Below, in pieces: positions 5,201 through 18,555 of a stretch of 21,022 nt of DNA. The notes under the pieces are model-generated. The model was not told the DNA's origin and ran no database searches. It was given only the letters and a program-made list of their open reading frames with translations. Source of the stretch: a virus. Each line of letters begins with the position of its first letter. The stretch's first letter is position 1. A program made the translations under genes and the position numbers. The stretch spans positions 1 through 21,022 of IMG/VR virus record IMGVR_UViG_3300032296_001974, one strand, 5' to 3'.

Positions 5201-8200
5201 TTAGAAAGCCCTCCGATAGCCGAATAATATCTCTTTGTGACGCAAAGTAGGATCCACCGCCACATCTAATCCCAACGTCCCGCCAATATTTGACTCTGGG
5301 AACAGCCTTTCGAGTGGAACCTGCAGGCCTCCCGTGATTTGAGTGCCGGCATTCCCCATCCCAACAGCGCCGCGCCGCCCGCTCATGATGCTGCCGCCAA
5401 TGTTTGCCGTGGTGCCCTCTTCATCAAGCGGAATATTCAAATTGCCGCCGTAAGAATACACGCCCTGCGGCTTTGCGCCAGAAAAGCTTGGCGTCATGGT
5501 TTGATAGCCGCCAAAGATGCTGGCAGGCCCATAACTGGCAGACACCCGAGGGCCGTAGCCCGTCATCCCATAATCGCCGGCATTTTCCATGGCCATCAAG
5601 CCAGCGCCAATGCCAATCTTGCGCTCTTGGTCAAGAATGGCATTGATGCCCGTGCTCAGGTTCCTCATGCCAGCGCGCTGCCCGTAACGGTCATCTTCAA
5701 CCGGGATTTCAAAATAATTGGTTGAAGACGTCACGTTTTCATTGCGCGGGTAGCGCATGTAATTCTCTGGCAAATCCTGCGCTCCAGCCACCATGGGGGT
5801 CTTCACATCAAGGCCCCTCATCAGCATGCGCGCACGCTGCGTCACATCCACAGGGGAAATTTCCCGCATAAATTCGCTGGCGATCGTATCAACTTCCCTG
5901 GGATCATAGGGGCGCGCCATACCCTCATCGCCCACCTCGCCGCCCTCGGCATAGCGGTGGTGCAATTCCTCCAGAGACTTTTTGCCTTCTACCATGCCGC
6001 CGTGCTTCATAAGCCTCGGGGCATTGGTAGCCAAGTTACCCCAGTTGCGGGCAAGATATTGGTCAAGCGTCTGGTTGTTGGCTTCAGCATCACGCTGAAT
6101 TTGAGCCCAATTCCAAGGAGTGTATGCCGGCGCGCCGCTCAACTGCTCTCCATATCTTTGATTGAGGGCAGACAAACTTTGATCAATGTTTTGACCGGCA
6201 TTTTCATCCGCCGCGGCGCCAGAGCCAGCATTGCCACTGCCCATGCCGCCAACGCTGGAGCCAACAGTGCTGCTCGTGCCGGCAACGCTGGAGCCCACAT
6301 TGCCAGTATTCGTAGTACTGCCAAACTCAGGCGAGCCAAAAGACATTACACTGGGAGAAACGCCCAAGGCTTGGCTCACCTGCGACCCAATCATGCCGCC
6401 AAGCATCCCAAGGCCAGGAACGCCCGTAGCAAGCCCAGCAATGCCCAGGCCAAGCCCCACCGGGTCAATTGATACTGCCGGAGTTTGAACGCCAAACTCG
6501 TCTACCGAAACACCAAGACCAATGCCGGGCGGAGAAAAAGCAGACTGCGCGGCATAACCAAGAGCCTCCGCCAAACCAATCTCGCCACGACCCAACGCGC
6601 CAAAAGCTTCGCCAATACCGGGCGCCGCACTAAATCCGGTAGGCGCAACATTGCCTGTGTCGGCAATACCAATGCCACGCCCTGCCTCTTGCGCGGCCAC
6701 GGCCGTGTTCATGTTGGCTGCGGCCTGGGTTGCCTCAGGGTCTTGGCTGGACATCATGCCGCCAAGGCCGGTCATGCCTTCCATGCCGCTCATGCCGCCT
6801 ACACCGCCCTCTCCAGGGCCAGGGCCATTTTCGCCAGTATCTCCAGCGCCAGCGCCCGTAGAGCCGGCGCCGGTGCCAGAAGTGCCGCCAGCAGCGGCAG
6901 CCGTGCCAGCCTCGGAATTAGCGGCATCCTGGCCGGCAGTACCTTGGCCGCCCTCGCCATTGCCGTCGCCGTTGCCGTTGCCGTCGCCGCCGCCGTTGCC
7001 ATCACCACCACCACCGCCGTCGCCATTGCCGTCGTCAAATGCCGGCACGCCATAGCGCGTCATGCGGCCGGATCCGCCGTAAGCTTTCAGTAGCGCAGCC
7101 TCCTCCGGCGTGATGTAAGCCAGCTCATGCCCCTGGCCGCGAATAGTGGCCTCCTTGGGTGCACGCACAGTGCCGCCATCTGCATACTTGGCATCAAGCG
7201 CAGCAAGCCCGCCCTCGGCGTAGCGACGCGTGATGTCAATCAGATCATCGCCAAACATGACGTAGTTGCGGGTGCCATCTTCTAAGCCACGACTGCTTGC
7301 GTCAAAATACCGAATACCAGGGATTCCTTCCTCGCGTAGCAACATTGAGGATTTGGGATCTCGCAAGGTTTTCTCGGTAAATTTTCTTTGCACCACATCA
7401 TTTACGTTATCGTAATTATACTGCCGTCCGTAAAAGGATTGTATTTTTTGATTCACTAAATCTTTTAGCGCGTCAGGATGGGTAAACCCAGACGTACCTA
7501 TCCGGTCCCAATCAAGGAATTTTTCTGGGTCAGAATGAATGTTCACCTCATACATGTGACCCCGCGCGCTGGGTTTCACTAAAAGCCTTTTTGCTTCGGC
7601 GATTCTTGAAGTGAAAGCCATTGTTTCAGGATTGCGACTAGCAAGACCACGTTGAACATGCGGCATACGAAGACGATAATTTAATTCTGCAATTGCATCT
7701 TCAACAGAAAGGCCGTCATCCAAAAGCCTTGCCGCAATTCCTTGCGCGCCTTCTCCACGCGCCGCATAAGGCCCAAGAAGGGCGAGCCTATCACGATACC
7801 CTCGCGCTACAGGCTCTGCCTCCGCAAAATACAACCCATGCCCGTAAGCTTGATTTCCCTCACCCGTGCCAATCTTGTTAATGTCAAAACGATCAAAACG
7901 ATACGGGCTGCCATGGTAGGCGCGAATGCTGGCCGGCCCCTCAGCAAAGCCGCGCACGAAATTGATCTGGCGCTCTTCTTCGGGCGTGGGCTCAACATCA
8001 CCACGCACCACAGCACTCATGCGCTGGCCAGCCTCGCCAAAGGAGCGCGGCATCGGAGCAAACCCGCGCCCCTCGGCAGAACGCAACTCACTCACAGGCT
8101 CGCCAGAGCCAATTGCGCGGGCAGCAAGGCGCTCAATGAAATCGGGATCGTAAGGCGTGCCCACCGGCGCCGCGGCAGGCCGGCGTACAGAACCGCCATC

Positions 8201-8269
8201 AGCAAACTTCTTGGGCTTGCCGCGATACTTGCGAGCCAAGGCGGAGAGCGATTTGTTTCCGTGAGCCAT
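5201..8269 (-). CDS. Giant virion-type protein with ADP-ribosyltransferase-like domain and beta-rich C-terminus (1022 aa)
   Basis: Residues about 115-355 carry AYHGSPYRFDRFDINKIGTG, then QAYGHGLYFAE, and close with GIRYFDASSRG and NYVMFGDDLIDI. This matches the ADP-ribosyltransferase domain of phage polyvalent proteins (ART-PolyVal type); YHGS would hold the NAD-binding His and GLYFAE the central core strand. A block ITPEEAALLKAYGGSGRM, common in phage internal proteins, is followed by a Gly/Asp/Asn-rich linker, a Gly/Ala-rich region, then about 140 C-terminal residues of alternating beta strands ending LFGYRRAF. YADGG/YAEGG motifs recur. ATG 8269 is preferred (AGGTG 6 bases upstream) over a GTG at 8278. 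It may be an ejected effector or internal virion protein; catalysis is unproven. Its plus-strand neighbour is unusual. Confidence 0.75.
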   Translation of the reverse strand: MAHGNKSLSALARKYRGKPKKFADGGSVRRPAAAPVGTPYDPDFIERLAARAIGSGEPVSELRSAEGRGFAPMPRSFGEAGQRMSAVVRGDVEPTPEEERQINFVRGFAEGPASIRAYHGSPYRFDRFDINKIGTGEGNQAYGHGLYFAEAEPVARGYRDRLALLGPYAARGEGAQGIAARLLDDGLSVEDAIAELNYRLRMPHVQRGLASRNPETMAFTSRIAEAKRLLVKPSARGHMYEVNIHSDPEKFLDWDRIGTSGFTHPDALKDLVNQKIQSFYGRQYNYDNVNDVVQRKFTEKTLRDPKSSMLLREEGIPGIRYFDASSRGLEDGTRNYVMFGDDLIDITRRYAEGGLAALDAKYADGGTVRAPKEATIRGQGHELAYITPEEAALLKAYGGSGRMTRYGVPAFDDGNGDGGGGGDGNGGGDGNGNGDGNGEGGQGTAGQDAANSEAGTAAAAGGTSGTGAGSTGAGAGDTGENGPGPGEGGVGGMSGMEGMTGLGGMMSSQDPEATQAAANMNTAVAAQEAGRGIGIADTGNVAPTGFSAAPGIGEAFGALGRGEIGLAEALGYAAQSAFSPPGIGLGVSVDEFGVQTPAVSIDPVGLGLGIAGLATGVPGLGMLGGMIGSQVSQALGVSPSVMSFGSPEFGSTTNTGNVGSSVAGTSSTVGSSVGGMGSGNAGSGAAADENAGQNIDQSLSALNQRYGEQLSGAPAYTPWNWAQIQRDAEANNQTLDQYLARNWGNLATNAPRLMKHGGMVEGKKSLEELHHRYAEGGEVGDEGMARPYDPREVDTIASEFMREISPVDVTQRARMLMRGLDVKTPMVAGAQDLPENYMRYPRNENVTSSTNYFEIPVEDDRYGQRAGMRNLSTGINAILDQERKIGIGAGLMAMENAGDYGMTGYGPRVSASYGPASIFGGYQTMTPSFSGAKPQGVYSYGGNLNIPLDEEGTTANIGGSIMSGRRGAVGMGNAGTQITGGLQVPLERLFPESNIGGTLGLDVAVDPTLRHKEILFGYRRAF
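6955..7040 (-). repeat. Gly/Asp/Asn-rich coding repeat (DGNG-type)
   Basis: Within the ADP-ribosyltransferase-like gene, tandem GGC/GAC/AAC-type codons encode a run of DGNG and GGGDG units, including DGNGDG. It is a slippage-prone, low-complexity linker. DxNxDG resembles calcium-binding loops in other proteins, but with so little context I regard it mainly as a flexible hinge between the enzymatic domain and the C-terminal part. Confidence 0.75.
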
Positions 8270-8303
8270 TTCAAGCACCTATTGCGAAAACATCAAAACC
8301 CCT

Positions 8304-8340: not shown

Positions 8341-8592
8341 ATGGACGCAAAGTACAGCCCAAGCACCGGCACCGGGGCTTTGGTAAAGGCCATGATTGAA
8401 GCCGGGATCAAGTCAGATCCACGGCCGATCGACGTTGCGCGCTGGTGGGTGCGTGGGAATCCGCATGTTGTATCTTGGCCAAAAGGTGAGGCGGTGCCAG
8501 ATGAAATCTGGGGCATCATTCCGCCTCACGCCCGCGAGAAGATCCCCCGCGATCAATGGCCTGCTCAAGCCCAACCGCCCCCAGAAGCGTAG
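8341..8592 (+). CDS. Lone plus-strand small protein (83 aa), unknown function
   Basis: This is the only plus-strand gene I support. The ATG at 8341 has AGGGGA about 7-8 bases upstream. The protein starts MDAKYSPSTGTGALVKAMIE, continues GIKSDPRPIDVARWWVRGNP, then HVVSWPKGEAVPDEIWGIIP, and ends in a Pro-rich tail. The composition looks like a real folded protein with a short helical N-terminal half, and it might be a small DNA-binding regulator; I cannot name a family. It converges on the giant transglycosylase gene and overlaps its last 77 bases tail to tail. It lies inside an otherwise one-directional late operon, as phage 'moron' cargo genes do. Confidence 0.65.
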   Translation: MDAKYSPSTGTGALVKAMIEAGIKSDPRPIDVARWWVRGNPHVVSWPKGEAVPDEIWGIIPPHAREKIPRDQWPAQAQPPPEA

Positions 8593-11500
8593 CCGGCAAA
8601 CCTGCGGGGCCATTGCGGATGATGTAATCCCGCAAGCCTCGCAGGCCAGACATGGACACGATGCCGAGCATGCGCTCATAATCGCGCCGCTGGCCACGGC
8701 CACCAAACTCTATTAGGCGCTGCAAATTCTCTTCAGCCTTACGGCGCACCGTGGGGCTGTCGAGCAAACGTTCTTTCGAGGTGCCGGGCATCGCGTCGAT
8801 GTAGGTGAAAGCCTTTTCAGTAGCGCGCCCAAGACCCTGGTTCGCCCGGCTAAATTCTTCCGACAGATCCACATAATCGCCGTCGCGCCGGCCGCGATAC
8901 ACGACAGCTTGAGGATTGATCTTTTCAACCTCGGCCTGCAGCTTCTTCATCATCTTGCCGGCCTGCAGATTGGTCATGTCGTCAAAATTCAAGAACGCCG
9001 CGCCGTTCCTGCTATTGGCAAAGCTTAACCCTTCGCGCTCCGCAACAGCCTGCAAGGCATCAGCCTCGGGCCGCGTCAGCTGACGCCCAAAGTCGATGCG
9101 GAAATTGTCTTGCGGGCCACCACCGCGCCCAACGCGCTGCGGGTCTGGAGCCTGGATGTAATACCATGGGCTGCCCTCCTGAGCGTCAATCAGGCCGCGC
9201 GCAGCCTGCATGCCGGAAAGGGTCTTACCGGCCTCAGGATCAACGCCACGCGGCGCAGCGCCCCGCCCGGCAGAAGGCAGCTCCACATTGGGCACCAGCA
9301 CCGTGGCAACCTCCGCCGGGTTGCGCTCCAGAACGCCCTCGGTGTTCCGGTAGATCCCAGGCGCTGATTGCGTGTACCTGCTCATCAAGCCAATGTCTTG
9401 CGCCATGCCTTCATTGCCGCGCGCATTCCGCCAGCTGCCCATGCGACTGAATTGCTCTCGGGCCGCGGCATTCTCTGGGTCCAGCAACTCAGGCAGGATC
9501 CCCGTTGAGCGGCCAGGAACCTGCTCGTACGGCAGGTACGCGCTGTAATTTGGCGCATAGTCTGGATAGGTGCGGTTCATCCTGGCAACCGCCTCCTCGT
9601 AGGGAATACCCAGACGCTCGGCATTCAGCTTGCCGCCCAAAACCACCCAAGGCACTTCCTGAATGTTGGCCGCACTCCAATCACCAACGCCGCCTGCCTT
9701 GCGCTCATTGGCACGCTGCACGGCAAGCACAGTCTCATAATCCATGAAGGCGTGCTGCTGCGGGCCCACACCGCCCTTATACGGGCCGGGATCTCCATCC
9801 GGGTTGGTATACCCGAAAGCTCGCGCCATCCATGTGTCATTGGTGCCGGTGGGCGCATAAGGCGCGCTGGGGTCAATCTGCTGCGCATAGACACCAGTCT
9901 TCTTGCCCAGGCGCATTGACGGCGTTTCTTCGTCAATCAGGCGCTCGCCGATCGGCGGCTGGTTGTGACCAATCATCGGGCTCTCGCCCTCGCGATACGC
10001 GGAAGCCGGATCAAACCTCAGGGCATCACGCCCTTCATTGTACGCCCTGGCAGTCGTACCCGTGCGCACGATCGGCGCAGGCTCGCCGCGCTCATAAGCC
10101 GTCAACGCCTGCGTGAGGAAGTTGAGGTTGGTGTCAGGCGAGGCTTGCGGAGACGTCACGCCCAGGCCTTGGGAAATGTGCCGCTCGCGAATCGGATCAC
10201 CGCCGGCAATCTCGCGGGTGAAGTCACGCGTGTTCTGATACCAGCCGCGGAATTGGCCGCCCTCATCAATCAGCGCATCAAGGTCAGCCCGCATCTTCGC
10301 GAGGTCTTCTGGGCTCTTGATCCAACTGGGCGCGCCCACATAGCCGCCGTCTTGCGTCCTGATCAGGTGGGGCTCGCTGGCAGCAACCCTGCCAGCATCC
10401 TCTGCAGACAGAACGCGCAGGTTGGGCACGGCCGCCATGCCGCGCCGGCCAGTGCCAAGACCTTCAATCGCGCCAGGGTTCACGATGTCGCCGGCCTCAG
10501 GCGGAACCTCAACGGGCCGCGGCGTGCTTTCTGGCATGTCTGGCCCACGCGGCGGACGGCGGCTGCGGCCAGCTCCAAACGTGCCAGCCGGGCCACCCTG
10601 CACGCCAGCCATAGGCAGCAGGTCCAACGCCCCAGGCGCGGCAAAAGACACCTCGCCAGTGTCCACATCCTGGCCCACAGGCAGCACCGCCGAGCGGCGC
10701 ACAGTCGGCGCGAAGTCGCGCACGTCACGGCCGCCACGCCCCTCAGGATCAATCAGGCGGCCGTCTGCAGTCTCAATCGCATAGCCGCTGCGTGTCACGT
10801 CCGTCTGCACGATGCGGCCGCCCTCGGGGATCTCAATCCCGGCCATGGCGCTCAGCATGCCGCGCTGCACATCCTCAGGGCGCGGGATCAGGCCAGCAAC
10901 GGCCTCAAATGGCGATACGGCATTGCCGGGGTACATCGCCCGGCCACCGCGCGGCACAGGAGCGCCAGCCACGCCCATGCGCGAAGCCGGCGTCATCAGC
11001 GGATCACGCTCGGCCAGACGCCGGTCATACTCGTCGTCGCTCAGGCCGGTGGCAGCATCCAAGATGCGCGCAACATCAGGCCCCGCACGCCGAGGCCGCG
11101 CTGCAGGGGCGTCGGCATAACGGTCTTCCATATCGTCCAGGCTCTCACGCACCGGGCCGCCCTCGGCATAGCCCTCCACGCCAGCACGGCCCATGATCTT
11201 CTTGACGTAATTCTGCGTCTCCAAGATCTGCGGGATCTGGTTGCCGGCACGAGCCACCCTGTTAGGGCCGGCATTGTAGGCGGCCAGCGCCAGGGGCATG
11301 GAGCCAAAGCGGTCATAGAGCTGCCGCAAGTATTGCGCGCCGGCCTCCAGGTTCTGGGCCGGATCATACCGATCAGCCTTTAGGTCCGACGCCGTGCCGG
11401 GCATCAGCTGCGCCAAGCCATATGCGCCCTTGGGGCTGCGCGCCTCAGGATTGAAGCGGCTCTCCTGGTAGACCAGGGACAGAAACACGTCGCGCGGCAA

Positions 11501-11833
11501 ATTGTACTTCTCGGCCAACCTGCCGGCCTCGGCCACCCAAGGATTGTCGGGCGGCAGCGCAGCGCCAAGGCGGGTCGGGATGGCGTCGCCGGCAGTCTCG
11601 CCGGGAAACACGCTAGGGGGGCCAGCCTCTGCAGAGCCCCCAGTCCGCTGGGGAGGAACGGCTGGAGGCATGGGCGGCAGGGGCAGAGGCTGGCGACGGG
11701 AAGACCTGCGCTGCTCGGCAATCGCCGCGGCAACAGGGTCAAACTCTTGGGCGGCAGAGCCGCGTGATTGCATCTGGCGCAGCAGGTCAAGCGGCGGCTG
11801 GGGCGGGATGGGAAGAGAGCGGGATCCAGACAT
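8516..11833 (-). CDS. Giant virion-associated protein with lytic transglycosylase (SLT) domain (1105 aa)
   Basis: Residues about 97-215 form a soluble lytic transglycosylase domain. VYQESRFNPEARSPKGAYGL contains the catalytic Glu (about residue 124), followed by AQLMPGT, AAYNAGPNRV and ETQNYV, the four usual SLT blocks. It would cleave peptidoglycan between MurNAc and GlcNAc, making a local hole for DNA entry. A Pro-rich stretch lies at 45-62. A YAEGG motif follows the SLT domain. Residues about 505-780 (GWYQNTRDFTREIAGG, GLGVTSPQASPDTNLNFL, TNDTWMARAFGY) resemble a domain seen in phage polyvalent proteins whose function I cannot state. The C-terminal part is helical and charged. There is no signal peptide, so it is probably packaged in the virion and ejected. 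It starts 1 base after the DUF6321-like gene. Confidence 0.85.
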   Translation of the reverse strand: MSGSRSLPIPPQPPLDLLRQMQSRGSAAQEFDPVAAAIAEQRRSSRRQPLPLPPMPPAVPPQRTGGSAEAGPPSVFPGETAGDAIPTRLGAALPPDNPWVAEAGRLAEKYNLPRDVFLSLVYQESRFNPEARSPKGAYGLAQLMPGTASDLKADRYDPAQNLEAGAQYLRQLYDRFGSMPLALAAYNAGPNRVARAGNQIPQILETQNYVKKIMGRAGVEGYAEGGPVRESLDDMEDRYADAPAARPRRAGPDVARILDAATGLSDDEYDRRLAERDPLMTPASRMGVAGAPVPRGGRAMYPGNAVSPFEAVAGLIPRPEDVQRGMLSAMAGIEIPEGGRIVQTDVTRSGYAIETADGRLIDPEGRGGRDVRDFAPTVRRSAVLPVGQDVDTGEVSFAAPGALDLLPMAGVQGGPAGTFGAGRSRRPPRGPDMPESTPRPVEVPPEAGDIVNPGAIEGLGTGRRGMAAVPNLRVLSAEDAGRVAASEPHLIRTQDGGYVGAPSWIKSPEDLAKMRADLDALIDEGGQFRGWYQNTRDFTREIAGGDPIRERHISQGLGVTSPQASPDTNLNFLTQALTAYERGEPAPIVRTGTTARAYNEGRDALRFDPASAYREGESPMIGHNQPPIGERLIDEETPSMRLGKKTGVYAQQIDPSAPYAPTGTNDTWMARAFGYTNPDGDPGPYKGGVGPQQHAFMDYETVLAVQRANERKAGGVGDWSAANIQEVPWVVLGGKLNAERLGIPYEEAVARMNRTYPDYAPNYSAYLPYEQVPGRSTGILPELLDPENAAAREQFSRMGSWRNARGNEGMAQDIGLMSRYTQSAPGIYRNTEGVLERNPAEVATVLVPNVELPSAGRGAAPRGVDPEAGKTLSGMQAARGLIDAQEGSPWYYIQAPDPQRVGRGGGPQDNFRIDFGRQLTRPEADALQAVAEREGLSFANSRNGAAFLNFDDMTNLQAGKMMKKLQAEVEKINPQAVVYRGRRDGDYVDLSEEFSRANQGLGRATEKAFTYIDAMPGTSKERLLDSPTVRRKAEENLQRLIEFGGRGQRRDYERMLGIVSMSGLRGLRDYIIRNGPAGLPATLLGAVGLEQAIDRGGSSRGREAE

Positions 11834-12110: not shown

Positions 12111-12271
12111 TTCTTCCTCGCGGCGCGCATGTTATCAACCATGTTGGGATAGGGGCGGCCGGCAGCCTTCGCCATGGCCTTCGCGGAGGTCTTCTGCTCG
12201 TCAGAGAGGCCCTTGGGCTTACCCAAGTCCTTGGGGCGCTTCTTGTCCCAAATGGGCTTCTTAGGCGGCAT
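12107..12271 (-). CDS. Small basic protein after terL (54 aa)
   Basis: The minus-strand frame from ATG 12271 encodes MPPKKPIWDKKRPKDLGKPK, then GLSDEQKTSAKAMAKAAGRP, and ends NMVDNMRAARKK. It overlaps the end of terL by 11 bases, and its TGA overlaps the GTG of the next gene. Lys/Arg/Pro-rich peptides of this kind, with AGRPYPNxVDNMxAARKK at the end, recur next to terminase genes in phages I know of. Function is unknown; the charge suggests DNA or RNA contact. Confidence 0.75.
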   Translation of the reverse strand: MPPKKPIWDKKRPKDLGKPKGLSDEQKTSAKAMAKAAGRPYPNMVDNMRAARKK

Positions 12272-13832
12272 ACGGGTTTACCCTTTCGCGCTTGTATTGC
12301 CGGGGCTCGTCTCTCTCACGGGCCTGCGGCAACTCGAACCAACCCTCGTTCTTCAGGTAGATAATCGCCTGAGTGAAAGTATCCACATAATCGTCGTGCT
12401 CAGCAACCGGAAACTTTGCAAGCTGCTTCATGAACGGGACCGCCCAGCTGACCACCTGCCCTCGGTTCTTGCCGGACTCTGGCACCCATAACAGGCCCAG
12501 CTCCAGCGTAGGCGAGGCTTGGTGCGCCCTGCTGACCTTGTCTGCGTTGCCGGGGTTGTAGCCGATCGCAGGCACTCTCGCCAAGCGCAAATCCTGCAGC
12601 AGGGACTGCCCCGACGCCTTGGCCTCCACCAGGATGCGGTCAGCGCGCCGGGCGGTGCGCAGGCCATCCTTCACCGTCGTGCCGCCATACTCGGTTGACC
12701 AGTCCTTGACCACGCGCGCCCTCAGGTCAGGGTAGCCCAGGTGCTCGTCCCAGGCGTCAATGAGCATGGCGTTGCGCTCACTGTTGTGGCTGAAGATCCC
12801 CCAGACCGTGCAGGCTGTGGGGTCGCCCGAGCTCTTCTCGGTGAAGGCGCAGTCATAGGACTGCAGGATGTACTCAAACTGAGGCAGGCCCTTATCCGCC
12901 GGCCACATCTGGAAGTTGGCCGTCTTCAGGATGCCGCCCTGATTGGGCACCGGATCCTGCTGCAGCTGGCCGGCAGTGCCGTAGGTGCCGAGCAGTTGCT
13001 TGAGCTCGGTGATTTCCTTGGGGCCAAACCGCTCTGGGCAGATGAGCTCGCCCTTCACCTTGCGGGGGTCGTAGGGCCCGACAGACGTGCTGCGCCGCAC
13101 GCCATCCCACTCGGCCGGGATCATCAGGTGCTCCCACCCGCCAATGTCTTCCAGGATGTGGCCGCTGATGTCACGCTCATGCAGGCGCTGCATGATGGTC
13201 ACCATGGCGTCCTTCTTGGGGTCGTTGAGGCGGGTGCTCCAGACCACGTCAAACCATTCCAGGGCGCTCTCGCGGATCACGTCGGACTGGGCTTCCTGGG
13301 CGCTGTGAGGGTCGTCCAGGATCAGGCGGCTGCCGCCCTCGCCCGTGGCCGTGCCGCCCACGCTGGTGGCCAGCCGGTAGCCCGTGCAGTCGTTCTCAAA
13401 ACGCTGCTTGGCGTTCTGGTCGCCGGCAAGCTTGAACATATGCCCCCAGCGTTCCTGGTACCAGGGAGACTGGATCAGGCGCCGGGCCTTGAGGTTGTCG
13501 CGGATGGAGAGGTTGCCGGAGTATGAGGCGCAGAGAAACTTCTGGCTGGGCTCGGTCAGCCATTCCCACATGGGCCACATCACGCTGACGATCGTGGACT
13601 TGGAGTGCCGGGGCGGGATGTTGATCAGGAGCTTGCGGATTTCGCCCGAGCTGATGGCCTCCAGGTGCTCGCAGATTTCCTGGATGTGCCAGCTCGGGAT
13701 GAATGGCACGCCCGGCTCCACGACGTGCCAAGCCTGCTTCACAAACTCGTAGAGGCTGGCAGACGCCGCCCGCCGCTCCTGCTCTCGCTCGATCAGGCCC
13801 AGCATGATCTGCGGAGAGACGGGGGCGTTCAT
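12261..13832 (-). CDS. terL: Terminase large subunit (523 aa)
   Basis: This is the packaging motor ATPase and nuclease that translocates DNA through the portal. The ATPase motifs are a Walker A-like NIPPRHSKST (about residues 71-80), where most relatives have PRHGKS, and Walker B RLILDDP (169-175). The nuclease domain shows the RNase H-like acidic set: SYDCAFTE (Asp about 327), ILVEAKASG (Glu about 403) and AEHDDYVDTF (Asp about 480-484). The length is usual. The start overlaps the terS stop as ATGA, so the two are translationally coupled. The Gly-to-Ser change in the P-loop is odd but at a position that can vary. Confidence 0.95.
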   Translation of the reverse strand: MNAPVSPQIMLGLIEREQERRAASASLYEFVKQAWHVVEPGVPFIPSWHIQEICEHLEAISSGEIRKLLINIPPRHSKSTIVSVMWPMWEWLTEPSQKFLCASYSGNLSIRDNLKARRLIQSPWYQERWGHMFKLAGDQNAKQRFENDCTGYRLATSVGGTATGEGGSRLILDDPHSAQEAQSDVIRESALEWFDVVWSTRLNDPKKDAMVTIMQRLHERDISGHILEDIGGWEHLMIPAEWDGVRRSTSVGPYDPRKVKGELICPERFGPKEITELKQLLGTYGTAGQLQQDPVPNQGGILKTANFQMWPADKGLPQFEYILQSYDCAFTEKSSGDPTACTVWGIFSHNSERNAMLIDAWDEHLGYPDLRARVVKDWSTEYGGTTVKDGLRTARRADRILVEAKASGQSLLQDLRLARVPAIGYNPGNADKVSRAHQASPTLELGLLWVPESGKNRGQVVSWAVPFMKQLAKFPVAEHDDYVDTFTQAIIYLKNEGWFELPQARERDEPRQYKRERVNPYAA

Positions 13833-14428
13833 TCCTTCTTGCCCGCGGCCTTTATCATCAGGGCTTGCATCTGCGCCAGCTCAGTGTCGCTCAGGTTCTT
13901 GAGATTGAGGCTGGCGATATTGATGGGGCCGCCGTCGGCGCCGGTGAGCTCTTGCAGTATTTTGTCGCCGTAGATTTTGGGCAGCACCTTGGACAGATAC
14001 CACTTGCGCGTATCCACCTGCAGGCGCTTGTGGGCGACAGTGTCGGAGCTGAGCGGGATGAGGCGCTTTTCGACAATGGGCGCGCCCTTGTCGTCAAACA
14101 TCAGATTGCCGTGCCGATCGGTCTTCTGGACCATCACCCACTCGTGGGTCTTGTCGGACAGGTCAATGATGTCCTCGGCCATGCTGCTCAGGCCGGCCTC
14201 GCGCGCCGACAGATACCGCTGCCGCGTGCCTGCCGGGTTATCGTCACGCACCCAGACACGCACGGTCATGTGGTCGGGCATGCCGGGATCTGTGGTGCAG
14301 ATGTTCAGCAGGGAGCGGCCGAGGGCCAGCTGCTCGCAGACGTGCGTGATGATTTTCTCGCGGTCATAGAGTTGGGGGCGGCCGGCGCTCTTTGCGTTTT
14401 TGCGGCGCTCAGGTTCGGGCGTCGTCAC
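13829..14428 (-). CDS. terS: Terminase small subunit-like protein (199 aa)
   Basis: It would bind the packaging site and regulate TerL. The N-terminal part (SAGRPQLYDREKIITHVCEQ, then MPDHMTVRVWVRDD) looks like a helix-turn-helix of the Sf6-type small terminase. The middle holds SAREAGLSSMAEDIIDLSDK, and VAHKRLQVDTRKWYLSKVLP then KIYGDK is a typical closing block of this family. The C-terminal 35 residues are helical. The start overlaps the stop of the upstream gene (ATGA) and its own stop overlaps the terL start. Its position directly before terL supports the call. Confidence 0.88.
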   Translation of the reverse strand: MTTPEPERRKNAKSAGRPQLYDREKIITHVCEQLALGRSLLNICTTDPGMPDHMTVRVWVRDDNPAGTRQRYLSAREAGLSSMAEDIIDLSDKTHEWVMVQKTDRHGNLMFDDKGAPIVEKRLIPLSSDTVAHKRLQVDTRKWYLSKVLPKIYGDKILQELTGADGGPINIASLNLKNLSDTELAQMQALMIKAAGKKE

Positions 14429-14763
14429 CGGAGGTTCTCCAATTTGTAGAGCGTGCTCATGTGCAGGGCCGTCAGGTCATCCAGGATATTCTCCAGGGCC
14501 GGCACGCCCTTGCAAATGGCGCTGCGGTTTTCATTCAGCCAGATGAGTTCGTCGTTGATCATTTTGACGACGTCATTGGTTTCGCTCATGCCCACGAGGC
14601 CAAAGGCACCCTGGTAGGCTTCAATCAGGTCGTCCACCGTTTCGATGACGTTTTCGTAGTAGCCGCCGAGGGCTTTGTGCTGGGCATAGGAATTGGTCTT
14701 CCAGTGCTCCAGGTGCGCCGCATTGCGCGCCGCGAACATTCGCTGGATTAGGTCTTTGATCAT
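14425..14763 (-). CDS. DUF5856-like helical protein with Dps/ferritin-like residue spacing (112 aa)
   Basis: The protein begins MIKDLIQRMFAARNAAHLEH, then WKTNSYAQHKALGGYYENVI and ETVDDLIEAYQG. I recognise this as the type of short phage protein named DUF5856. The His29, Asp44 and Glu48 spacing equals the H-15-D-4-E spacing of the Dps ferroxidase site, and an HW pair lies just upstream, so a ferritin-like helical fold is possible; metal binding is inference. The C-terminal half is helical (VVKMINDELIWLNENRSA). It is first in the packaging operon, behind the promoter at 14786-14814. AGGGG lies about 7 bases before the ATG. It is coupled to terS by ATGA. Confidence 0.78.
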   Translation of the reverse strand: MIKDLIQRMFAARNAAHLEHWKTNSYAQHKALGGYYENVIETVDDLIEAYQGAFGLVGMSETNDVVKMINDELIWLNENRSAICKGVPALENILDDLTALHMSTLYKLENLR

Positions 14764-14785
14764 GGTCCACCCCTGGGTTCAACAT

Positions 14786-14814
14786 ATTGTATGCAGGGAG
14801 CGGGATTGCCACAA
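14786..14814 (-). promoter_or_regulatory. Sigma70-like promoter for the packaging operon
   Basis: On the minus strand, TTGTGG (14809-14814), a 17-bp spacer and TACAAT (14786-14791) stand 23 bases before the ATG at 14763. The -10 box matches consensus at 5 of 6 positions and the -35 at 3 of 6. It lies between the terminator of the early-type operon and the first packaging gene, the expected place for a new transcript. The rest of the gap (14815-14937) shows no convincing gene. Confidence 0.55.
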
Positions 14815-14937
14815 GCAAAAGCTGGCTTGCGTGCCTTTTGGCTTCAAGAAACCATTTTGCTGAAGTCAGAAAAATAAATGTTTTCAATGGGATCGCGCGC
14901 GTAGTTGCTAAGTATCATCAGAAGAGGCGCGGCGCAT

Positions 14938-14966
14938 AAAAAGATCAAGGGGGCCGGAGCCCCCTT
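14938..14966 (-). terminator. Intrinsic terminator closing the early-type operon
   Basis: On the minus strand, AAGGGGGC, loop TCCG and GCCCCCTT form an 8-bp GC-rich stem (14947-14966), followed by GATC and TTTTT (14938-14942). It begins 8 bases after the stop of the 52-residue gene. The 3' U run is on the minus-strand side, so it ends transcription coming from the replication module. Confidence 0.85.
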
Positions 14967-14974
14967 TGTTTGGC

Positions 14975-15133
14975 TTAGCCTTTTGGTTTGCGGGGTGTTG
15001 GCCCATGCAGCCAGATGCCGGGCTCTTCTTCTGAGGGGCCGCACCAGCAGCTGGGACTTTTGATGTGCCGTTTTGTTTCGGTGGATGGGATGACGTGCAG
15101 GTCACCACCCTCCGGCAGTGTGAGCGTGTTCAT
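14975..15133 (-). CDS. Small protein (52 aa), last gene of the early-type operon
   Basis: The frame from ATG 15133 encodes MNTLTLPEGGDLHVIPSTET, then KRHIKSPSCWCGPSEEEPGI, and ends WLHGPTPRKPKG. It contains a CWC pair and a His-rich context but no complete zinc-ribbon. Its ATG overlaps the TGA of the preceding 57-residue gene (ATGA), and its TAA lies 8 bases before the terminator stem. The coupling and the neat fit before the terminator support a real gene. The family is unknown. Confidence 0.7.
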   Translation of the reverse strand: MNTLTLPEGGDLHVIPSTETKRHIKSPSCWCGPSEEEPGIWLHGPTPRKPKG

Positions 15134-15303
15134 GGTGCCTCCTGTTTCGGTTGAAGCTCCACCACCAGCAGCACCTTGCCGTCTGGCCGGATTACATGGA
15201 ATGGCGGCTTGGTGAAGCCGGCGCGGGTGAGGGGGAGCTTGGGCAACTCAATGAATGTGCCGCCCTCGTGGTCAAGCCAGTAGCCCCAGATTTTCTCAGT
15301 CAT
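15130..15303 (-). CDS. Small protein (57 aa), unknown function
   Basis: The frame from ATG 15303 encodes MTEKIWGYWLDHEGGTFIEL, then PKLPLTRAGFTKPPFHVIRP, and ends DGKVLLVVELQPKQEAP. It looks like a compact beta-rich fold with aromatic residues near the N-terminus. It begins 2 bases before, and is coupled to, the stop region of the helix-turn-helix gene (stop 15296-15298), and its own stop overlaps the next start. It has no membrane segment and I recognise no family. Confidence 0.7.
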   Translation of the reverse strand: MTEKIWGYWLDHEGGTFIELPKLPLTRAGFTKPPFHVIRPDGKVLLVVELQPKQEAP

Positions 15304-15496
15304 GTTTTTTTGCCTTGATCATGAATTGCAGCATGCGGATTACGGACACCGGCACTTGAGCTCGGCCGCTGGTCCAAGCGTATGCGCTGGTGCGGTGGAC
15401 GCCGGCCTCTGTGGCCAGCTGGTCTGTGGTGAGGTTCAGCTTCCCGAGCAGCTGCTTGAGGTGCTCGGGGCTGGTGTCTATGCGGGTGGTGATCAT
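15296..15496 (-). CDS. Small helix-turn-helix DNA-binding protein, Cro/XRE-like (66 aa)
   Basis: The segment LTTDQLATEAGVHRTSAYAW followed by TSGRAQVPVSVIRML fits a Cro/XRE-type helix-turn-helix: helix 2 at DQLATEAG, recognition helix at HRTSAYAWTSG, then a third helix. At 66 residues it is the size of a minimal phage regulator. The start overlaps the upstream stop as ATGA. It may act on operator-like repeats such as 16008-16032 or 8304-8326, but no link is shown. A role in timing early transcription is a reasonable inference. Confidence 0.75.
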   Translation of the reverse strand: MITTRIDTSPEHLKQLLGKLNLTTDQLATEAGVHRTSAYAWTSGRAQVPVSVIRMLQFMIKAKKHD

Positions 15497-15681
15497 TTGC
15501 TCACAATGCCCACCAGATTGGTGGGCTCATAGAGGATGGAGGTGGCCGGGTATCCATCCGCGCTGTAGGCGCAGCGCAGGATGATATGGCCGAGGGAATT
15601 GGCGGAGATGCTGATGACGTGGTGGCCGTCGGCCAGCACATCACCAATCTGCACGTCGTCGGGTTTGATGTACTTGATCAC
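15493..15681 (-). CDS. Small beta-rich protein (62 aa), unknown function
   Basis: The protein opens MIKYIKPDDVQIGDVLADGH, then HVISISANSLGHIILRCAYS and ends NLVGIVSK. The GDVLxDGHxV pattern and alternating hydrophobics suggest a small beta barrel, like a short SH3 or Hint-like turn, without catalytic residues I can name. It starts 3 bases after the stop of the preceding gene, and its TGA overlaps the next ATG. It is a conserved-looking but unassigned early gene. Confidence 0.7.
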   Translation of the reverse strand: MIKYIKPDDVQIGDVLADGHHVISISANSLGHIILRCAYSADGYPATSILYEPTNLVGIVSK

Positions 15682-15684
15682 GTC

Positions 15685-15963
15685 TCAGCCCTCCGCGGTC
15701 TTGGCTTTGACGCGGAGGGTGGTCACGACGCTTTTCTTGGTGCAGGCGGCGATTTGCTCAGCGGAGAGGAAGGACTTCGCCAGGGTCTGGTCGAAGGTGG
15801 CGCGCTCGGAGAGGGTCACCTTCACGTCGGCAAATTCGCCGACCACGTTTTCCACGCCAGAGGCGATGATGTCGTCGCGCACGGCCTTGAGCTCGGCTTC
15901 GAGTTCGTCAATGCGGGCCTTGAGGGTGGCGTACTTGTCGGCGGTGCTGAGGTTGTCGAGCAT
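15685..15963 (-). CDS. Small protein with N-terminal coiled coil (92 aa), unknown function
   Basis: Residues 5-40 (TADKYATLKARIDELEAELK, then AVRDDIIASG) form a likely coiled coil. The C-terminal half, with GEFADVKVTLSERATFDQTL and SFLSAEQIAAC, looks globular. The ATG at 15963 has AGGAGA about 8-9 bases upstream. It is the first gene after a 172-bp gap holding an operator-like repeat, so it may begin a transcript. Function not recognised. Confidence 0.75.
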   Translation of the reverse strand: MLDNLSTADKYATLKARIDELEAELKAVRDDIIASGVENVVGEFADVKVTLSERATFDQTLAKSFLSAEQIAACTKKSVVTTLRVKAKTAEG

Positions 15964-16007
15964 TTTAGTGTCTCCTGTTTTTCGGCTTGATTGCCTTGAG
16001 GAGACTT

Positions 16008-16032
16008 CTACAGGGTGTAGCGAAACTCTACA
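16008..16032. promoter_or_regulatory. Operator-like triple half-site (CTACA / TGTAG)
   Basis: CTACA (16008-16012), TGTAG (16016-16020) and CTACA (16028-16032) are arranged as an inverted pair with a 3-bp spacer and another with a 7-bp spacer. They lie 45 bases upstream of the ATG at 15963, inside the largest non-coding gap of the early-type module (15964-16135). AT-rich DNA at 16033-16075 could hold a promoter, but no clean -35/-10 pair is seen. A small regulator such as the Cro/XRE-like protein could bind here. Confidence 0.45.
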
Positions 16033-16135
16033 ACACCTTTTTTAGATACTTAACCACTTTTTATGTTTTACCGGAAAATCCCCCCAGCGCCGGGAGAGTT
16101 TGAGCGCCGAGGGTAGGTCCAGGAGAACGGCGTTT

Positions 16136-16375
16136 TTAGGCGCCGCGTTGAGTATCCTCTGCCTCTAGGGCTTTTTCAAGGATCTTGTCTTGCCGGGCGA
16201 TTTCTTGTTCTACCCTGGCGATTTCCAGCATGGTGCGTTGGTGGGCCAGAGTGTCTCTGGCGGCCAGATCTTGCTTGGCGCGGTCATGCAGGTGCGGCAG
16301 CCTGTAGCGCAGGGCGCGTGGGCTGTTCAGCAGCCGATCGAGCAGGGCTGGGTCTAATGGTTTCATGTGAAACAT
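16136..16375 (-). CDS. Small charged coiled-coil protein (79 aa), unknown function
   Basis: The protein starts MFHMKPLDPALLDRLLNSPR and has a long helix with coiled-coil character (MLEIARVEQEIARQDKILEK, then ALEAEDTQRGA). The ATG at 16375 overlaps the preceding TAA as TAATG; a second ATG lies three codons on. No catalytic motif or membrane segment is visible. It is the last gene before the 172-bp gap. Confidence 0.7.
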   Translation of the reverse strand: MFHMKPLDPALLDRLLNSPRALRYRLPHLHDRAKQDLAARDTLAHQRTMLEIARVEQEIARQDKILEKALEAEDTQRGA

Positions 16376-16584
16376 TAGTCCAGTCCCAGCAGTTCGCGTG
16401 CTTCGCGGTTGGCTTCTTTCGCGCGTATCAACTCAAACTCAAGATTGCTTGGCTGGATTGGCTTGAAGAGTTTTTCTGCTCGGATGACGTGACGCATGAA
16501 ATCAGCCAAATCAAGGTCAAGATCACGAGGATCAGCGTCATCAAGAAAGACCCCATGCCGGGCAGTTCTGAGTTCTTCATTCAT
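16375..16584 (-). CDS. Small helical acidic protein (69 aa), unknown function
   Basis: The protein reads MNEELRTARHGVFLDDADPR, then DLDLDLADFMRHVIRAEKLF, and ends ANREARELLGLD. It is mostly helix with an Asp-rich middle. It has one of the best ribosome binding sites in the window (AGGAGG about 6 bases before the ATG), so it may be made in quantity. That site overlaps the stop of the tiny membrane protein. I do not recognise a family. Confidence 0.75.
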   Translation of the reverse strand: MNEELRTARHGVFLDDADPRDLDLDLADFMRHVIRAEKLFKPIQPSNLEFELIRAKEANREARELLGLD

Positions 16585-17552: not shown

Positions 17553-17825
17553 TCAATCCACCTTGAGTTTGGCCAGCAGCACGGTGCCGGCTGGGTCGCG
17601 TCGTTGGGCTGTCGAGATTGTGCCGTCGTCCACCATGGCCTTGCAGACCCTCCACTGGTCGCGTGGCATGGTTGGCTCCCATTCGCCCCTGCCGGAGGGC
17701 CTGACGGCCACGATGATCCAATCGTAGCCAATCTCCTCCACGCCTCCTGCGCGGGCCTGTGTGGCCACGGGAGGCGCCGCTGGGGGCATGGGCCCCCTTG
17801 GCTGCTGTGTGGGCTTCCTGGCCAT
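17553..17825 (-). CDS. Small protein (90 aa), unknown function
   Basis: The first 25 residues are Pro/Ala-rich and likely disordered (MARKPTQQPRGPMPPAAPPV). The rest has EEIGYDWIIVAVRPSGRGEW then EPTMPRDQWRVCKAMVDDGT, and looks like a small alpha/beta domain. The ATG shares its first base with the GapR-like stop (TGATG), so translation is coupled. I recognise no family. Its place next to GapR-like and helix-turn-helix genes hints at DNA work. Confidence 0.7.
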   Translation of the reverse strand: MARKPTQQPRGPMPPAAPPVATQARAGGVEEIGYDWIIVAVRPSGRGEWEPTMPRDQWRVCKAMVDDGTISTAQRRDPAGTVLLAKLKVD

Positions 17826-18130
17826 CAGAAACGCTCCTGGGCGGCCTTGCCGAGCGGCGTGTCCGCCAGCTGGCCAAGGGCAGCCATGTAGGTTTCCAGG
17901 AGGGCCTCACGCTCTTCGCGCTTGGCTTCATCTTCCGCCCGGTGTTTGATGATCAGCCGGATGGTGGGCGCGTCAAAGCCCGCGCTCTTGGCCTCCCGAT
18001 AGATGTCTTTCACATCCTCGGCCAAGTTCTTCTTCTCGGCCTCCAGGGCTTCGATGCGCTCAATGATGCTGAGCAGGCGCTTGGCCGTTTGAGAATTGAC
18101 GCTGCTGTTGTGTCCGATTTTGTCGCTCAT
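17825..18130 (-). CDS. gapR: GapR / DUF2312-family DNA-binding protein (101 aa)
   Basis: The protein starts MSDKIGHNSSVNSQTAKRLL, then SIIERIEALEAEKKNLAEDV and KDIYREAKSAGFDAPTIRLI. It closes with the family block ALLETYMAALGQLADTPLGK. This is the DUF2312 pattern: a coiled-coil IERIExLExEKK region and a GFDxxxIRxIIKxRxxD block. GapR of Caulobacter clamps over-twisted, AT-rich DNA ahead of replication and transcription forks and stimulates topoisomerases. The start at 18130 overlaps the previous stop as ATGA and matches the usual MSD-IGHNS opening; an ATG at 18136 is also possible. A phage copy may help its own replication or alter host chromatin. Confidence 0.9.
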   Translation of the reverse strand: MSDKIGHNSSVNSQTAKRLLSIIERIEALEAEKKNLAEDVKDIYREAKSAGFDAPTIRLIIKHRAEDEAKREEREALLETYMAALGQLADTPLGKAAQERF

Positions 18131-18555
18131 ATCCATTCATCCTGTTTCGGTTCGTTGGGTTCATCCAGCCACACTCCCTCCCCCGTGGCCGGCTTGGGGT
18201 TTCGTTCTGGCGCCTCGTCGGCGATGGCGTCGCGTTCAGCTGCGTCCACCGGGTCGTCGATCGTGAAGTGCCGAATACGGATCATGTCGGGCGCGGGGTG
18301 GCAGTTGCAGCACCTCCATCCCAGGTGGGGCGCGCCCAATTCAGTCCAGAACCTGATGCCCCCGCCGCATGGCTTGCAGGGCTCGCCTGGGGGCATTGGG
18401 AGCGGGTCGCTCCAGCCAACGTACTGCATCTCCGGTCCAATCTCCCACGCCTTCCGCCACCGGGCCAAATCCCGTGGCGATGCTTGAATTGCCATATGCG
18501 CCAGGGTGGGCGCCTTTTTTGTGTGCCTAGACCTTGTTGCGTTTTTTGGGGCCAT
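18127..18555 (-). CDS. Cys-rich zinc-ribbon-like protein (142 aa)
   Basis: Two Cys pairs are visible, CKPCGG and CCNCHP, about 24 residues apart (GIRFWTELGAPHLGWRCCNC), as in a small zinc ribbon. The N-terminal 30 residues are basic (MAPKNATRSRHTKKAPTLAH), followed by a helix SPRDLARWRKAWEIG. The C-terminal tail is acidic and Pro-rich. It may bind nucleic acid, but no named family is recognised. The ATG at 18555 gives a 29-base overlap with the previous gene; the ATG at 18495 is an alternative but lacks a Shine-Dalgarno site. Confidence 0.7.
   Translation of the reverse strand: MAPKNATRSRHTKKAPTLAHMAIQASPRDLARWRKAWEIGPEMQYVGWSDPLPMPPGEPCKPCGGGIRFWTELGAPHLGWRCCNCHPAPDMIRIRHFTIDDPVDAAERDAIADEAPERNPKPATGEGVWLDEPNEPKQDEWI

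Follow-up and report, generated by a model that had tools for sequence, protein, structure and literature searches.

Described relatives of the phage protein considered here include T4 rI.-1/MobD.6, LIMEstone1 ORF78 and Sajous1 gp217. In a review, over-expression of T4 rI.-1 is reported to have made lysis inhibition slightly longer, and its combination with rIII to have given slight interference (Golec 2010, via PMC6832632); a relative is also carried by RaK2, described in its report as a phage without T holin or RI (PMC3622015). The other two come from virion proteomics. LIMEstone1 ORF78 was found in the virion proteome by three unique peptides with 28.21% coverage (PMC3296691), and Sajous1 gp217 by 10 spectra in CsCl-purified phage (PMC10892097), while members from the Klebsiella phages VMC03 and VMC04 gave 26 and 27 spectra, also in CsCl-purified phage and over the virion-protein cut-off of the authors, by whom the protein was grouped with DNA-associated proteins (PMC13119998). 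That contaminants are possible in such preparations is acknowledged in both of the latter papers. Phyre2 assigned Sajous1 gp217 to 'Ferritin' at a confidence of 96.7, and its authors proposed a ferrojan-horse mode of entry; infection of TonB and FeoB mutants by Vi01-like phages was unchanged, which gave no support for such a dependence (PMC10892097). Canonical Dps and Mn-catalase of other phages have been discussed (PMC8008677), and host dps and catalase go up during YerA41 infection (PMC7354516).

By profile, T4 rI.-1/MobD.6 (E 5e-33), LIMEstone1 ORF78 and Sajous1 gp217 all belong to the Pfam family DUF5856, and the VMC03 protein was the one of the Klebsiella pair whose membership was checked in the same way. 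The likeness of members of this family to ferritin is partly published already; the protein described here is a further member. Our literature searches found no mention of DUF5856 by name and no paper joining rI.-1 with Dps, the term 'virion-associated ferritin' did not occur among the matches listed, and nothing on metals, ferroxidase activity or mutants of any family member turned up in the papers examined. Dps itself is a dodecameric cage with its metal site at the two-fold interface.

The Locus and Its Gene Family

The window, that is, the whole stretch of DNA analysed, is a virus fragment of 21,022 bases, and a megablast search of its full length against phages returned no match. The gene of interest lies with the terminase genes:

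12261-13832, minus strand: terminase large subunit (phrog_38, E 3.2e-88)
13829-14428, minus strand: terminase small subunit, TerS (Sf6_terminase, E 9.1e-26; GTG start)
14425-14763, minus strand: DUF5856 / PHROG 858 gene (ATG start, 112 aa)
14947-14966, minus strand: terminator-like hairpin upstream of the DUF5856 gene (pattern match only)

The stop codon of the DUF5856 gene and the GTG start of TerS share 4 bp (GTGA), and the large terminase gene comes after TerS. An earlier, sequence-only reading of this DNA had described the product as the first protein of the packaging operon, a description that fits both the overlap and the hairpin upstream, the latter as a pattern match only; the interval 13700-16500 holds nine sites of the terminator-like kind, where shuffled sequence averages 3.7 (sd 2.1).

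The window protein matched the Pfam DUF5856 profile (PF19174) over positions 1-94 of 94, with an E-value of 4.1e-17 and 63.5 bits (curated cut-off 34.6), and PHROG 858 with an E-value of 1.3e-19. The label of the latter, 'starvation-inducible transcriptional regulator', is a transferred annotation. The family is a large one: tblastn with the window protein found 1351 phage records at E <=1, and in 1323 of these the match spans 80% or more of the query. At 112 aa the window protein is of similar length to LIMEstone1 ORF78 (117 aa), the T4 protein having 128 aa and that of Slopekvirus 140 aa, and in one close relative the DUF5856 frame is shortened to 66 aa (sites given: L021, 9-209; L003, 4268-6182). 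In a control list of 14 genomes, B. subtilis alone had a match, below the cut-off. The Pithovirus LCPAC404 protein A0A481ZC29 was among the BFVD structural matches to the window model (E 0.025), and on the basis of that predicted structure the family may extend past phages.

Other genes of the window, all on the minus strand, include one for a 94-aa Tad2-like protein (1668-1952; PF11195, Thoeris anti-defence 2-like, E 2.3e-24) and one for a GroES-like co-chaperonin (1966-2388; Cpn10, E 3.9e-10), a gene that is also present in DSL-LC05, immediately 5' of the portal gene. The 1025-aa product of 5201-8278 has glycine-rich stretches and a weak match, under the cut-off, to an ADP-ribosyltransferase in polyvalent proteins (PF18760, E 8.6e-4), and the 1105-aa product of 8516-11833 contains a lytic transglycosylase (SLT) domain (E 3e-28) and is possibly an ejected virion protein. 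A GapR-like DNA-binding protein is encoded at 17825-18136 (E 3.9e-27). GapR is typical of alphaproteobacteria, and the gene is in that respect a hint to the host.

Metal-Ligand Residues

The feature that had drawn attention to the protein was a set of three residues, His29, Asp44 and Glu48, at the H-15-D-4-E spacing of the Dps ferroxidase centre, with an HW pair upstream placed three residues closer than in Dps. Both parts of that statement are borne out by alignment of the family and of Dps. In the window protein, H20 is followed by W21, and the intervals are nine from H20 to H29, 15 from H29 to D44 and four from D44 to E48; in nine aligned Dps (one PDB fragment and eight from phage-collection records, one of them unverified), H15, W16, F23, H27, D42 and E46 are invariant, with intervals of 12, 15 and four. 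The codons concerned are:

14713-14715, minus strand: His17 (87 of 89 sequences; aligned to a His in S. aureus Dps and NapA)
14704-14706, minus strand: His20, equivalent of the Dps HW histidine (89 of 89)
14677-14679, minus strand: His29, equivalent of the second Dps ferroxidase histidine (89 of 89)
14665-14667, minus strand: Gly33, fifth-ligand position, acid missing (alignment of 89)
14632-14634, minus strand: Asp44, equivalent of the Dps ferroxidase Asp (89 of 89)
14620-14622, minus strand: Glu48, equivalent of the Dps ferroxidase Glu (89 of 89)

The 89 distinct sequences, the window protein included, were obtained by pooling alignments A2, A3 and A5 and adding Sajous1; the members were chosen by hand, and near-duplicates and truncated frames were left out. 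Across the 112 positions of the window protein, H20, H29, D44 and E48 are the sole fully invariant columns. H17, which matches the first His of the HNFHW found in some Dps, comes close; D95 is 97% conserved, and every other His, Asp or Glu position 63% or less. H29, D44 and E48 do not, then, vary freely among homologues, and it is this conservation over 89 sequences that was decisive in our judging the original observation confirmed. That the pattern might be a chance motif in an unrelated helical protein can hardly be right: the bare H-x14-D-x3-E does arise in 1.7% of 100,000 shuffles of the window protein (0.026% when H[WFY]-x5-12 is required ahead of it), but the four ligands are invariant, Dps comes first in a PDB sequence search by profile, and the predicted fold of a T4-type relative is ferritin-like, as set out below.

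The likeness to the Dps site is nevertheless incomplete, in that four ligands (H20, H29, D44 and E48) are present and the fifth is not. The position four residues after the second His, which we take to be that of the fifth Dps metal ligand, is Gly33 in the window protein, and over the 89 sequences it holds G in 64, N in 10, E in nine, D in three, Q in two and R in one. All 12 acids are in T4-type members, of which there are 13, the exception (L162) having Asn. Read by eye from alignment A4, eight of the nine Dps carry the fifth-ligand acid. A canonical Dps of phage S-SRM01 (L175, 265-696) has, also by eye, a Gly at this position, like the branch to which the window protein belongs.

Relationship to Dps

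Since phmmer with the window protein alone found no sequence in the PDB, profiles were used for the search. A broad profile of 23 diverse members, run against all PDB sequences, had as its best matches S. aureus Dps (E 3.2e-4) and H. pylori NapA (E 8.2e-4), followed by a designed helical protein (E 1e-3) that represents helical noise. Among the best 60 of 67 matches, 31 belonged to Dps, NapA, Dlp, MrgA or ferritins, a number that includes two Dps-spike chimeras. Four of the five alignments printed were with Dps- or ferritin-type proteins; in these the Dps ligands were matched by H20, H29, D44 and E48, and the A-B loop was three residues shorter than that of Dps. The narrower A2 profile of 70 members put NapA at the top (E 6.4e-3). 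Profile-profile comparison by hhalign with the nine Dps gave a probability of 92.6% (E 4.4e-7) for the 23 members and of 57.5% (E 1e-4) for A2, both values being uncalibrated against unrelated helical families.

The Pfam Ferritin model (PF00210) did not match the window protein at E <=1, nor did any other ferritin model; two of eight other family members reached E-values of 0.15 and 0.017, below the cut-off. The same model found nothing elsewhere in the window record (0 of 1) or in the contigs of relatives (0 of 8), records that are perhaps fragments. Taken with the conservation of the ligands, remote homology between DUF5856 and Dps is well supported as far as sequence comparison can carry it, and the window protein looks to be a DUF5856 protein derived from, or sister to, Dps. 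It was not filed as a Dps because the fifth ligand is absent, the protein is acidic and PF00210 does not match.

Predicted Fold

The model of the window protein, built with 70 sequences, had a mean pLDDT of 94.1 and a pTM of 0.73, and comprised four helices (2-22, 26-54, 65-78 with 80-84, and 88-110) in an open arrangement that did not superpose on Dps. In a Foldseek search against the PDB its top three rows were Dps chains, at E-values of 0.45 or worse and an rmsd of about 17 A; by VIA its best match was a rubrerythrin-type protein with a Z of 7.7 at 5.5 A, where the bar for helical bundles is about 13; and in BFVD one phage protein superposed over its full length (TM 0.84), most of the next rows having a TM of about 0.4. 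Because the model is open, a domain swap of the sulerythrin kind was considered; the span from G52 to N92 is 39 residues as against 40 in the T4-type protein, and the idea was not relied on.

The model of a T4-type relative (L167; 39 sequences, pLDDT 91.2, pTM 0.85) was a compact ferritin-like bundle. It matched YciE (3ogh) with a Z of 14.9 at 2.0 A over 123 residues, MsDps2 with a Z of 14.5 at 2.2 A over 119 residues, and 2gs4, of the YciE/YciF type, with a Z of 13.8, and its best 50 structural matches were, by title, mostly Dps, bacterioferritin or YciE/YciF-type proteins. Foldseek gave Dps chains at a probability of 1.00 and a TM of up to about 0.73; the first row by E-value was a pectin methylesterase inhibitor, and no row fell below 0.001. 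The proposal of a Dps-like metal site accordingly agrees with homology and full ligand conservation in the sequences and with the predicted ferritin-like fold of the T4-type model, all of them computed likenesses.

Function and Rival Explanations

The reading that we prefer, with a probability of roughly 0.6, is that of a phage ferritin-like DUF5856 protein, related to Dps, which handles iron or peroxide late in infection and is able to travel with the virion. It would probably be made late, in this case from the head of the terminase operon; for LIMEstone1 a putative late promoter is annotated before ORF78. The conserved H-H-D-E lies on helices A and B; it most likely binds iron (or manganese) between subunits in the manner of Dps, and the second site would be weaker, since Gly33 stands in place of the fifth ligand. 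The protein probably acts on metal much like Dps, through a reduced centre, most likely as a late sink for iron or peroxide and not as a coat for DNA, and it could enter, or stay on, the virion. What we infer for the window protein itself comprises metal binding, an oligomer, late expression, a location on the virion and the physiological purpose. The statement in the sequence-only reading that such a protein next to the terminase genes has no known role was too strong, given the presence of members in the virion preparations of three studies, one of them called a ferritin, and the effect of over-expressed rI.-1 on lysis inhibition.

The main rival, a serious if minority alternative, is a structural protein of the virion, a small helical part of the neck, tail or internal head in which H-H-D-E binds a structural metal and has no redox role. 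It is compatible with the preferred reading on fold and metal, and the three virion studies speak for it, although the spectral counts there are modest, 10 to 27. The genomic surroundings of relatives bear on it in both directions. In DSL-LC05 the DUF5856 gene is directly 3' of the portal gene, and among 64 downstream neighbours scanned at 70 representative loci tail-fibre families are frequent, with up to 14 of the 64 for one family among the 25 commonest families listed; contexts nevertheless vary widely (terminase, lysis, primase, rI), which is odd for one fixed part.

Distinctly unlikely is a modulator of lysis timing, made late and stabilising lysis inhibition or the control of holin, for which the metal or redox state would be the input. 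Of 11 annotated T4-type loci, 10 have an annotated rI gene immediately upstream; the eleventh (L158) has an unnamed gene there. An endolysin gene adjoins the DUF5856 gene in Caulobacter phage GB2A, relatives of lysozyme and endolysin do so in L100 and L118, and in a Manatee Spring phage it has a lysozyme gene on one side and a lipoprotein/spanin-like gene on the other. Endolysin families account for at least 4 of the 64 downstream neighbours and for one or two of those upstream, where 67 neighbours were found and 46 of them scanned, among the 25 commonest families listed. The T4 effect that points the same way is slight, dependent on over-expression and slightly reversed with rIII (PMC6832632), RaK2 as described carries its relative in the absence of T holin and RI (PMC3622015), and the neighbour in the window is a terminase gene and not a lysis gene.

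Quite improbable, finally, is a DNA-binding Dps or helper of TerS, with a part in coating or condensing DNA or in regulating packaging alongside the small terminase. The operon shared with TerS, the PHROG label and the placing of the VMC03/04 member under DNA-associated proteins in PMC13119998 favour it, but the label is a transferred annotation. Of the 149 loci where a family gene was detected, several of which share a contig (L015 and L075 do), only 25 have a match to the window TerS; in 23 of these it lies no more than 30 bp downstream. In L003 and L021 more than 1 kb separates the DUF5856 gene from TerS. The window protein is, moreover, acidic, with a pI of 5.06 and a charge of about -6, so that non-specific DNA binding is unlikely, and the earlier suggestion of a DNA-protecting protein is not supported in the DNA-binding sense.

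The preferred reading of a Dps-related protein for late iron or peroxide handling can be carried further, to DUF5856 as a mini-ferritin widespread among phages and packed into the virions of T4-like phages, Ackermann- and podophages, which would bring a metal- or peroxide-handling enzyme into the next cell; in the present branch it would have become a protein of the terminase operon whose site is reduced to a single metal. This extension is speculative and we think it doubtful. The preferred reading offers a family found in about 1,300 phage records, T4 rI.-1 included, a biochemical identity that can be tested, a Dps-type metal site, and it joins three threads that we did not find joined in the literature searched: rI.-1 and lysis inhibition, the virion 'ferritin' of Vi01-like phages, and DUF5856. 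If the metal binding is real, both the ferrojan-horse idea and phage oxidative protection become testable in T4 with point mutants.

Comparison with Known Systems

With Dps, as represented by S. aureus 2d5k, H. pylori NapA and M. smegmatis Dps2, the window protein has in common the H-H-D-E order, the H-15-D-4-E spacing and the HW of helix A. It differs from them in its acidity, in the absent fifth ligand and the PF00210 match that it lacks, and in its length, the Dps among the matches listed being of 142-211 aa. The canonical Dps of phages (Grimontviridae, Streptomyces and Lactobacillus phages, S-SRM01) are likewise phage-borne and have Dps-type ligands, but one of them (L176) matches PF00210 with an E-value of 1.2e-11, as the window protein does not. 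A query with S. aureus Dps found 102 phage records at E <=1e-3, some unannotated and possibly host DNA, a count not strictly comparable with the 1351 obtained with the window protein at E <=1. The YciE/YciF ferritin-like stress proteins, to which the T4-type model gave some of its best structural matches, are absent from the best 60 of 67 PDB sequence matches. The ligands of YciF differ from the Dps pattern, which is the one that DUF5856 follows.

It is to its own family that the window protein is closest. Both of the modelled members, the window protein and T4-type L167, have four predicted helices, and the invariant H-H-D-E is common to T4 rI.-1, LIMEstone1 ORF78, Sajous1 gp217 and the window protein. 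Its branch has a Gly at position 33 where nearly all T4-type members have Asp or Glu, and the window gene stands at the head of a terminase operon.
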